The notes beneath the pieces are model-generated. The model was given only the letters and a program-made list of their open reading frames with translations. It made no database searches and had not been told where the DNA came from. From assembly GCF_000473165.1 (NCBI RefSeq), contig NZ_KI421504.1:1208501-1272500 (forward strand): a stretch of 64,000 bases of DNA, in the 5' to 3' direction. The position numbers and the translations under genes are program-made. This document shows positions 33,985 to 36,601 of the stretch, in pieces. Each line of letters begins with the position of its first letter. The first letter of the stretch is position 1. The stretch is from Leisingera aquimarina DSM 24565 (GTDB lineage: Bacteria; Pseudomonadota; Alphaproteobacteria; Rhodobacterales; Rhodobacteraceae).

Positions 33985-34168
33985 GCAAGGTGCCGTCCTT
34001 TGGGGCGGAGAATTGGGAAGCTGGTGAAATTCCGGCACTGCCCCCGCAACGGTGACCCCGGGTTAGGCTTGGTAAAGACCACTGAAGGAATGCCTTCGGG
34101 AAGGTGCCATGCCCCGCCATCTTAAGGCCCCGGGACAGTCCGGAAACCAGCCTTGCCAAGATAACGTC
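33985..34168 (+). ncRNA. Cobalamin (B12) riboswitch upstream of gbcAB
   Basis: Consensus blocks appear in the right order: AAGGTGCCGTCC at about 33987, the core GGGAAGCTGGTGAAATTCC.GGCACTG.CCCCCGCAACGGT (about 34015-34053, shown broken), a variable region with a GCCTTC-GGGAAGG-type stem, a repeated GGTGCC, and the closing B12 box GTCCGGAAACCAGCC (34139-34152). This matches the adenosylcobalamin riboswitch class. It belongs to the leader of the plus-strand gbcA gene, with about 107 bases between it and the start codon. Confidence 0.88.
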
Positions 34169-34214
34169 AACCGCGGGCGGCGGCAGGGCGGTTGCGGGCG
34201 TGCGGCCTGCAATC

Positions 34215-34270
34215 TCTCTCCTCATGCCTGCACCCAGCCAACACGCCGCGGGGTTGCGGCAAAGGAGAGA
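34215..34270 (+). promoter_or_regulatory. Candidate riboswitch expression platform: RBS-sequestering stem
   Basis: TCTCTCCT at 34215-34222 is exactly complementary to AGGAGAGA at 34263-34270, which contains the gbcA Shine-Dalgarno 6-7 nt before the ATG at 34276. Formation of this 8-bp stem would block translation. This is the usual output of cobalamin riboswitches in proteobacteria. Alternative pairings of the first strand with the riboswitch core were not established. Confidence 0.6.
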
Positions 34271-34275
34271 AGCAG

Positions 34276-35511
34276 ATGCTTCAGGACAGCGAAATTCTGG
34301 CCAAACTGGTGGCCCGGCAGAAGAACTATTCCATGGAACAGGCGTTCTACACCGACCCGGGTGTGCTGGATCTGGACATGCGGCAGATCTTCTACCGCGA
34401 GTGGCTGTTTGCCATTCCCGCCTGCGAAGTGCCGAAGCCGGGCAACTATGTCACCCATCAGATCGGCGCCTATAACGTCATCATCGTGCGCGGCACCGAC
34501 GGCGAAGTGCGCGCCTTCCACAACGCCTGCCGCCACCGCGGCTCGGTTGTGTGCAAGGCCAAGAAGGGCAACTCGCCCAAACTGGTCTGCCCCTACCACC
34601 AGTGGACCTACGAGCTGGACGGCAAACTGCTGTGGGCGCGGGACATGGGGCCGGATTTCGATGCCTCCAAACACGGGCTGAAGCCGGTGCACTGCCGTGA
34701 TCTGGCCGGTCTGATCTATATCTGCCTGGCCGATGAAGCACCGGATTTCGATGCTTTCGCCGACGTCGCCCGTCCCTATCTGGCGCCGCATGATCTGGGC
34801 AATGCCAAGGTGGCCTTTGAAAGCTCGATCATCGAGAATGGCAACTGGAAGCTGGTCTGGGAAAATAACCGTGAGTGCTATCACTGCGGAGGCAACCACC
34901 CGTCGCTGTGCCGGACTTTCCCGGAAGATCCGTCGGTCACTGGTGTTGAGGGCGGTGAGACCCCGCCGCATCTGCAAAAGCATTTCGACCGCATTGAGGC
35001 CGCAGGGGTTCCGTCGCAGTTCCGCATGGGCGCGCGCGGCCAGCACCGGCTGGCACGGATGCCGCTGAACGAGGGCGCGGAAAGCTATACCATGGATGGC
35101 AAGGCGGCAGTCGCCAAACCGCTGGGCCGGGTGCCCTTTGCCGATGCCGGCACGCTCTTGAAGTTCCACTATCCGACCACTTGGAACCACTTCCTGCCGG
35201 ATCATTCGCTGGTGTTTCGGGTCACTCCGATCAGCCCGACCGAGACTGAAGTCACCACCAAATGGCTGGTGCACAAGGATGCGGTCGAGGGTCAGGACTA
35301 TGACATCAAACGCCTGACCGAGGTCTGGATGGCGACCAATGACGAGGATCGCATCGTGGTCGAGGACAACCAGCAGGGCATCAACTCCCCCGCCTATGAA
35401 CCCGGCCCCTATTCCGAGGTGCAGGAAAGCGGCGTCATCCAGTTCTCCAACTGGTATGCCGAGCACCTGACCCGCGCGCTGACCGGCCGTCACCTGATCG
35501 CGGCGGAGTAA
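34276..35511 (+). CDS. gbcA: Rieske oxygenase, glycine betaine demethylase GbcA-like
   Basis: A 411-residue ring-hydroxylating-type oxygenase alpha subunit. The Rieske [2Fe-2S] site is C-x-H at CRHRGS and C-x2-H at CPYHQW (residues ~87-112). The mononuclear iron site is [17 protein letters not shown] with the bridging Asp/Glu replaced within NNRECYH, followed by a later Asp. It resembles GbcA/stachydrine demethylase proteins, which use O2 and electrons from GbcB to take a methyl group off glycine betaine, giving dimethylglycine and formaldehyde. The ATG at 34276 has AAAGGAGAGA upstream. The leader carries a cobalamin riboswitch. Confidence 0.88.
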
Positions 35512-35515
35512 GCAC

Positions 35516-36601
35516 ATGGGACTGCAGGCTAATTTCGAGACGCTGGACGAAACCCTGGCGTGGAAGGACGACGAGATGCTGGAATGCGTCTCGGTTGTGC
35601 CGGAAGCGCCAAACACCGCCACTTTCAGCTTCCGCGCGCCGTCGGGCGCGTGGTTCAAATACCAGCCGGGCCAGTTCCTGACGCTGGAGCTGCCAGTGCC
35701 GGAAGGGACCGTTTGGCGGACCTATACCATCAGTTCCTCGCCGTCGCGGCCTTTGTCGATCTCGGTGACAGTGAAGGCACAAGGAGACAGCATCGGCACC
35801 CGCTGGATGCTGGACCACCTGAGGCCGGGGAGGCATATCAGAGCGTCGGGCCCGGCGGGTGTATTCACCCTGCCCAAGCGTCCGAATGGCAAGTTCCTGT
35901 TCATCTCGGCTGGCTCCGGCATCACGCCCAGCCTGTCGATGACACAGTATCTGTTTGACCGCGGCCAGTCGCCCGACATCTGCTTTATCAACTGCGCCAA
36001 ACGGCCCAGCGAGATTATCGCCCGCCAGCAACTGGAAAGCATGGCGTCGCGGCTGCCGGGGCTGAAGCTGAATCTGGTGGTGGAAGAAGACGACCCTTAT
36101 CAGGTCTGGACCGGCTACCGGGGCCAGCTCAATCAGATCATGCTGGGCCTGATTGCGCAGGATTATCTGGAGCGCGAGGTCTACTGCTGCGGGCCGGAAC
36201 CCTTCATGCAGGCGGTGCGCGACATGCTCAACGGCCTTGGCTTTGACATGGAGAACTATAATCAGGAAAGCTTTGGCGCTCCGGTTGAGACTGCCGCTGA
36301 CGTGCCTGAGATTGATGATGTTGTGCCGGAAGAGACCGCTGCCGCCGAGATCAGCTTTGCGGCCTCCGGTGTGATGGCGGCCTGCACCGAGACCGACACC
36401 GTGCTGGCGGTGGCCAAGGCCTCGGGTCTCAACATCCCGTCGGGCTGCACCTTTGGCATCTGCGGCACCTGCAAGGTCAAGAAGACCGCAGGCGAGGTGC
36501 ATATGGTCCACAATGGCGGCATCTCGGAAGAGGATGTGGAGGCGGGCTATATTCTGGCCTGCTGCTCCAACCCGATTGGCCGGGTAGAGGTCGATATCTG
36601 A
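35516..36601 (+). CDS. gbcB: Ferredoxin reductase partner, GbcB-like
   Basis: A 361-residue electron-transfer partner of GbcA. An FNR-like flavin domain shows RTYTISSSPS (FAD), GPAGVFTLP and AGSGITPSLSM (NAD(P)H), and CCGPEPFM. A C-terminal plant-type [2Fe-2S] domain has CTFGICGTCKVKK and a later CC near the end. ATG at 35516 lies 4 bp after gbcA. An acidic linker (about 265-280) joins the two domains. It would pass electrons from NAD(P)H to the Rieske centre. Confidence 0.9.
   Translation: MGLQANFETLDETLAWKDDEMLECVSVVPEAPNTATFSFRAPSGAWFKYQPGQFLTLELPVPEGTVWRTYTISSSPSRPLSISVTVKAQGDSIGTRWMLDHLRPGRHIRASGPAGVFTLPKRPNGKFLFISAGSGITPSLSMTQYLFDRGQSPDICFINCAKRPSEIIARQQLESMASRLPGLKLNLVVEEDDPYQVWTGYRGQLNQIMLGLIAQDYLEREVYCCGPEPFMQAVRDMLNGLGFDMENYNQESFGAPVETAADVPEIDDVVPEETAAAEISFAASGVMAACTETDTVLAVAKASGLNIPSGCTFGICGTCKVKKTAGEVHMVHNGGISEEDVEAGYILACCSNPIGRVEVDI

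Follow-up and report, generated by a model that had tools for sequence, protein, structure and literature searches.

A cobalamin riboswitch ahead of gbcAB-like Rieske demethylase genes in Leisingera aquimarina and related Alphaproteobacteria

A cobalamin riboswitch precedes a Rieske oxygenase–reductase gene pair

The window analyzed here, the whole stretch of 64,000 nucleotides (nt) from contig NZ_KI421504.1 of Leisingera aquimarina DSM 24565, carries a cobalamin (B12) riboswitch followed by genes for a Rieske oxygenase and a reductase that resemble the betaine demethylase GbcAB. An Rfam covariance scan matched positions 33971-34169 of the + strand to RF00174 (Cobalamin) with a score of 106.5 bits (gathering threshold 31.5 bits), an E-value of 1.1e-25 and coverage of model positions 1-189 of 189, confirming that this segment is a full-length cobalamin riboswitch aptamer. 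An earlier note on this DNA had pointed to B12-riboswitch blocks in the leader and proposed a covariance search; the blocks are present and the match is significant, with the start of the leader corrected from 33985 to 33971, where the aptamer begins. The only other Rfam match in the window is a tRNA, leaving RF00174 as its sole riboswitch, while the genome's four other riboswitches adjoin cobW, CbtA and periplasmic-binding-protein genes and a small unassigned open reading frame. From the aptamer class, the window leader is predicted to bind cobalamin and to alter expression in response, the expected sign being repression.

The ATG of the gbcA-like gene (34276-35511, + strand) lies 106 nt past the aptamer on the same strand, with no terminator-like site in the gap, in agreement with the proposal that the riboswitch leads into this gene. 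Its 411-residue product combines Rieske (PF00355) and ring-hydroxylating catalytic (PF00848) domains, and the adjacent gene (35516-36601, + strand, ATG at 35516) encodes a 361-residue gbcB-like reductase with FAD_binding_6, NAD_binding_1 and Fer2 domains, giving the layout of a GbcA-type system. The best NCBIfam families were NF058607 (GbcA) for the oxygenase, with 518.1 bits against a cut-off of 670, and NF058606 (GbcB) for the reductase, with 363 bits against a cut-off of 500. The pair had been called gbcAB, a B12-independent demethylase; the B12-free enzyme type holds, whereas the name, with both proteins under the cut-offs, is possible but uncertified, and it is used below in that sense.

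The riboswitch–gene pairing is conserved across five families

A riboswitch was found upstream of 44 of 90 gbcA-like loci, with the gene starting 54-180 nt after the aptamer on the same strand. These 44 loci span five families, the window's own and four others of its class (carried as codes f10, f84, f164 and f211); the comparison of roseobacter gbcA leaders suggested earlier thus found the arrangement conserved there and beyond. A chance neighbour was considered and is ruled out by this conservation. Among 198 genomes sampled evenly from the family, 37 contained a close gbcA homologue, and at 15 of 37 loci from genera other than the window's the riboswitch lies directly upstream. Within Leisingera, the gene is present in 20 of 21 genomes and the riboswitch at 18 of the 20 loci scanned, the two exceptions being L103, with a decayed leader, and L111, a second copy that is 68% identical. 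The GbcA cut-off was passed by 13 loci, every one from outside the class, and at none of them was a riboswitch found.

A sequence profile was built from 26 of the 44 riboswitches, so that these 26 positives are also its training set. It separated the 44 positives (at least 95 bits) from the 46 negatives, 45 of which gave no match and one of which, the decayed L103, scored 55 bits. Applied to 80 named loci, the profile detected a riboswitch at 22, including loci from Ruegeria, Shimia, Sulfitobacter, Phaeobacter, Pseudophaeobacter and Roseibium, and all 11 of these that were rescanned with Rfam were confirmed. The riboswitch–gene pair is also borne by plasmid pGal_C110 of Phaeobacter gallaeciensis and by a Tritonibacter plasmid. 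Decay was seen in two leaders, both scored as riboswitch-free and both from genomes that contain MttB (see below): the Leisingera leader L103:1190-1518 has a decayed riboswitch core, with the Shine-Dalgarno sequence nearly free in the longer predicted fold, and the Primorskyibacter leader L169:1244-1290 retains a remnant of 32.0 bits against the threshold of 31.5. At a further locus, L155, two divergent cobalamin riboswitches (847-1047 and 1186-1386) lie about 140 nt apart, the second facing gbcA.

The expression platform in Leisingera suggests control at the ribosome-binding site

Fold predictions were made for the 106-nt expression platform (34170-34275, + strand). A terminator search of the leader revealed no + strand intrinsic terminator-like site from the aptamer to the gbcA-like gene; two overlapping sites on that strand lie nearby at 33921-33939, upstream of the aptamer. 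A sigma-70-type promoter search of 33740-36700 returned no site, a result that is uninformative for this organism. Directly 3' of the aptamer is a hairpin (34168-34194, + strand), an inverted repeat with arms CAACCGC and GCGGTTG that is near-invariant in the Leisingera alignment and may act as partner of the aptamer. It is followed by a putative anti-Shine-Dalgarno sequence, TCTCTCCT (34215-34222, + strand), complementary at 8/8 positions to the Shine-Dalgarno sequence AGGAGAGA (34263-34270, + strand), which stands 5 nt before the ATG and is invariant in 19 aligned Leisingera leaders.

When the last 82 nt were folded, the predicted pairing probability of the Shine-Dalgarno sequence was 0.80-0.99 in all 20 Leisingera leaders, with an opposite strand that varies. 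In a 139-nt fold, freeing this sequence was predicted to cost 4.5-9.7 kcal/mol in 19 leaders versus 0.9 kcal/mol in L103, where its pairing falls to 0.20. In a consensus fold of 16 leaders, taken from the aptamer end, the anti-Shine-Dalgarno is paired instead with G-rich sequence further upstream and the Shine-Dalgarno is open; since this differs from the fold in which the Shine-Dalgarno is paired, there are two rival folds, of the kind required of a switch. On these models, our best guess is that control in the Leisingera leaders is translational.

Leaders from all genera were compared in the same respect, 57 of 66 riboswitch-bearing and 78 of 101 riboswitch-free leaders being testable; nine riboswitch-bearing leaders have no recognisable Shine-Dalgarno sequence, some probably from a misplaced start. 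General sequestration of the Shine-Dalgarno in all genera was unsupported, with riboswitch-free leaders paired slightly more. Because pairing over all genera does not exceed the controls, a translational platform is supported within Leisingera only.

The riboswitch tracks MttB-superfamily genes

A search of the window genome for a corrinoid methyltransferase, as suggested earlier, was rewarded: of its 14 matches to the MttB superfamily, 13 are nearly full-length and the other is short. PF02607 has one match there at E 1e-5 or better, within a frame of roughly 247 residues that represents a stand-alone corrinoid protein. Three of the MttB genes adjoin dimethylglycine-dehydrogenase-like genes with DAO, FAO_M and GCV_T domains (L008:3055-4500, L013:3-1457 and L017:3-1457), and on this gene order are candidates for the partner route.

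Across 124 gbcA-like genes, riboswitch and MttB occur together for 47, neither for 30, MttB only for 47 and the riboswitch only for none. Put otherwise, MttB is present in the genomes of all 47 riboswitch-bearing genes tested, and none of the 30 genes from MttB-free genomes has the riboswitch. MttB was called at E 1e-50 or 1e-20, by search batch. Tree rows represent genes, and genomes G091 and G211 are each represented by a pair of rows of which only one bears the riboswitch. L088, with an in-frame stop, was left out of the counts, and 15 riboswitch-bearing Leisingera loci stand outside the MttB tally. Of 78 named loci, 50 entered the test, namely every remaining riboswitch-bearing locus and otherwise mostly higher-identity, riboswitch-free loci; the 28 dropped included two loci from metagenome-assembled genomes too incomplete for use and seven from genomes already tested.

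Inside riboswitch-bearing clades, MttB and the riboswitch are jointly absent in G046 and in G260, G323 and G464, the last three from one genus (g216), and in these four genomes the corrinoid domain is found only in a MetH-size frame. The riboswitch-bearing G000 and G163, as well as G213, whose riboswitch is decayed, have one stand-alone corrinoid protein each, while G092, G191 and G476 have both stand-alone and MetH-size frames. Trait simulations on the gene tree gave 0.0055 and 0.0035 for the exception-free pattern, values that are crude in that one fitted two-state model was used and draws near the observed trait counts were kept. The association of riboswitch and MttB is consistent but weakly powered: its direction is clear, and its power is low once ancestry is corrected for. 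The MttB superfamily has numerous members with different substrates, so that MttB serves here as no more than a proxy for the enzyme of the partner route.

The oxygenase is related to both Stc2 and GbcA

The nearest solved chains found by phmmer were 3n0q (751 bits) and 3vca (665 bits), the latter being the stachydrine demethylase Stc2. 3n0q matches end to end a gene of Ruegeria sp. TM1040 located directly behind a cobalamin riboswitch, which links this solved but uncharacterised protein to a riboswitch-led gene. The window oxygenase is 69% identical to Stc2 versus 49% and 51% to two GbcA proteins above the cut-off, and it is also nearer to Stc2 than to above-cut-off GbcA in the tree. It falls outside the Stc2 clade, in a 10-row group (support 99/93) beside the group of Stc2 and 3n0q (98/97), and the clade joining the two groups has support of 94/90.

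The riboswitch is distributed differently over these branches. All eight other rows of the Stc2 clade in the smaller tree are riboswitch-free, and in the 124-row tree none of the 31 rows of the Stc2-side clade was called riboswitch-bearing, whether MttB was present (24) or absent (7). The riboswitch-bearing L145 and L146 group as sisters of the above-cut-off GbcA proteins, with scores of 636 and 655 bits against the cut-off of 670. The comparisons thus leave evidence on both sides, and the substrate may be glycine betaine or proline betaine.

Neighbouring genes in the window and its relatives

Downstream of the pair in the window are genes on the - strand for a family-5 extracellular solute-binding protein (PF00496; 36654-38504) and a BCCT transporter whose best match is the glycine betaine BCCT family (38414-40072; NF047988, 435.6 bits, under the cut-off of 650), and one on the + strand for a LysR regulator with a best match to the choline-sulfate type (40193-41125; TIGR03418, 265.9 bits, under the cut-off of 324.8). 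Upstream of the riboswitch are DUF6638 (31463-32812) and DUF1523 (33095-33736) proteins of unassigned function.

In several relatives, other B12-related operons are close by. In L227 (2167-5971), L228, L231 (6365-10276) and L163 (152-1075, with nrdHI visible), gbcAB has close to it a riboswitch-led nrdHIEF operon, which encodes a ribonucleotide reductase of class Ib that is independent of B12; in L230 and L232 (10915-14727) such an operon lies near a riboswitch-free gbcAB. nrdHIEF thus stands beside gbcAB as if B12-backup genes clustered. A two-piece B12-dependent MetH comes directly after gbcAB, and runs in its direction, in L228:5330-9186 and L229:476-4374 (genomes G118 and G191), and in L227:9786-13566 (genome G092) MetH lies past gbcAB with its own cobalamin riboswitch in front; in these cases a B12-dependent enzyme is apparently under B12 control. 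An Old-Yellow-Enzyme-type flavoprotein, perhaps for the next demethylation step, is encoded near gbcA-like genes in 22 entries (two of them the same place; for example L075:725-2833), none of which was called riboswitch-bearing.

Discussion

We consider it probable that gbcAB provides betaine demethylation without B12, as a backup or to spare B12, and that it is repressed by B12 through a translational OFF switch. With ample cobalamin, the aptamer would bind its ligand and the anti-Shine-Dalgarno would hold the gbcA Shine-Dalgarno, leaving gbcAB little translated; betaine would then be demethylated by MttB-superfamily corrinoid methyltransferases, with its methyl groups passing to tetrahydrofolate. 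With scarce cobalamin, the sequestering helix would open and allow synthesis of the demethylase, which depends on O2, iron and NADH but not on B12 and would spare cobalamin for methionine synthesis. In this scheme we infer the ligand response and its sign, the substrate, the partner MttB and the sparing role.

Several observations weigh against this interpretation. Both window proteins fall short of the NCBIfam GbcA and GbcB cut-offs. At the platform, the 82-nt fold pairs the Shine-Dalgarno in L103 as well (0.85) despite its decayed aptamer, and the 139-nt fold lowers pairing to 0.50-0.97 in the 19 other Leisingera leaders; the Leisingera platform alignment contains no pair with a two-sided compensating change. 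Over all genera, Shine-Dalgarno pairing in riboswitch leaders is 0.556 versus 0.524 in shuffles (Wilcoxon p 0.34) and is not above the 0.641 of riboswitch-free leaders. With respect to the partner route, MttB is present and the riboswitch missing for 47 of the 124 tree rows, so that MttB is not sufficient, and of 12 ancestry-corrected pairs about 4 are concordant and none discordant, with a median p of 0.125 that falls short of significance. In the riboswitch-bearing G118, a genome 84% complete with one MttB, the corrinoid domain was found in two frames, both of MetH size and neither of them stand-alone. Finally, a B12-dependent MetH beside gbcAB is unexpected if the riboswitch governs purely B12-free isozymes, although this order fits B12 sparing, in which methionine synthesis would be strengthened and betaine demethylation shifted to a cobalamin-free enzyme.

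Other explanations bear on different parts of this scheme. The same switch might govern an enzyme for proline betaine (stachydrine) or another betaine, with another MttB paralogue as counterpart, a possibility that we hold to be real but the less probable one. The 69% identity to Stc2, compared with 49-51% to GbcA, makes it likelier and slightly lowers the confidence in the main reading; the tree position closer to Stc2 and the missed GbcA cut-off argue in the same direction, and 13 nearly full-length MttB proteins would allow several substrates. It is opposed by the 31-row Stc2-side clade, which has no riboswitch-bearing row, by the placement of the riboswitch-bearing L145 and L146 as sisters of above-cut-off GbcA, and by the nearby BCCT transporter with its glycine betaine best match, itself under the cut-off. 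As to the mode of control, the finding that Shine-Dalgarno pairing is not general among riboswitch-bearing leaders would suit a riboswitch acting through transcription or Rho access instead of the ribosome-binding site; this is unlikely, given that the gap from aptamer to gene holds no intrinsic terminator-like site on the + strand and that the anti-Shine-Dalgarno/Shine-Dalgarno helix is predicted over 82 nt in 20/20 Leisingera leaders.

It is very improbable that the riboswitch is a relic or fortuitous element of a lost cobalamin gene that does not control gbcA. Decayed copies do exist in one Leisingera (L103) and one Primorskyibacter (L169) leader, but in 44 of the 90 loci, drawn from five families, riboswitch and gene share their strand and are closely spaced, and aptamer and platform are strongly conserved. 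The purpose of the switch might also be allocation of B12 and not backup, with low B12 inducing gbcAB, and in some species a dedicated methionine synthase along with it, so that the little cobalamin available goes to methionine. The runs of gbcAB and two-piece metH in one direction in L228 and L229 would fit this, as would the order gbcAB, second riboswitch, metH in L227 and the stand-alone corrinoid protein of Ruegeria pomeroyi, which according to PMC12478193 serves both betaine demethylation and methionine synthesis. The window genome has no other PF02607 match at E 1e-5, and so no MetH to favour, and we regard allocation in place of backup as rather doubtful.

The preferred reading, a B12-repressed and B12-free route, combines known and apparently new elements. 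Genes for B12-independent isozymes, such as nrd and metE, are found behind cobalamin riboswitches. "Isozymes of B12-dependent enzymes" are indeed a named class of cobalamin riboswitch targets (PMC3766115), in a paper whose main text contains neither "betaine" nor "Rieske". The system described here shares with such riboswitches the RF00174 aptamer and a B12-free enzyme beside a likely B12-dependent alternative in the genome, and differs in its target, a catabolic Rieske demethylase chemically unrelated to the methyltransferase that it would replace. The earlier note knew of no description of this coupling, and we found no paper linking a cobalamin riboswitch to this Rieske demethylase in our searches of an open-access library, with supplementary regulon tables, RegPrecise and subscription journals outside the scope of the search; the aptamer class and B12 riboswitches on B12-free isozymes are known, and the target seems new.

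The two halves of the proposed switch each have a described relative. PMC12478193 (2025) reports a split B12-dependent betaine demethylase/methionine synthase in Ruegeria pomeroyi and a B12-dependent glycine betaine route in other marine bacteria as well; the word "riboswitch" has a single occurrence in its main text, where a cited title concerns a glycine riboswitch. The stand-alone corrinoid protein of the window genome resembles this split system. MtgBCD(E) of R. pomeroyi, as presented there, carries out the same net step as proposed here, betaine to dimethylglycine, by B12-dependent methyl transfer, whereas enzymes of the window type would demethylate with O2. GbcAB of Pseudomonas and Chromohalobacter (PMC12478193) is a Rieske oxygenase with a reductase, as in the window, and belongs to the best-matching NCBIfam families; the window pair differs in scoring under the cut-offs, its oxygenase being 49-51% identical to two above-cut-off members, and the 13 above-cut-off loci outside the class are all riboswitch-free. 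Stc2, at 69% identity and 665 bits, is the closer relative, in a clade that likewise has no riboswitch.

Glycine betaine is an abundant marine osmolyte. If the proposed scheme is true, B12 supply would act directly on betaine turnover through a riboswitch on an alternative, B12-free route; this would provide a simple, testable rule for which betaine demethylation enzyme a cell uses, and a catabolic, chemically unrelated enzyme would join the targets of B12 riboswitches. More tentatively, and with somewhat less than even confidence, the pairing may represent an old and widespread alphaproteobacterial switch for B12 allocation that is read by RNA, through which betaine methyl groups would be either kept by corrinoid transfer or oxidised to leave B12 for methionine, and in which loss of the corrinoid route would be followed by loss of the riboswitch.

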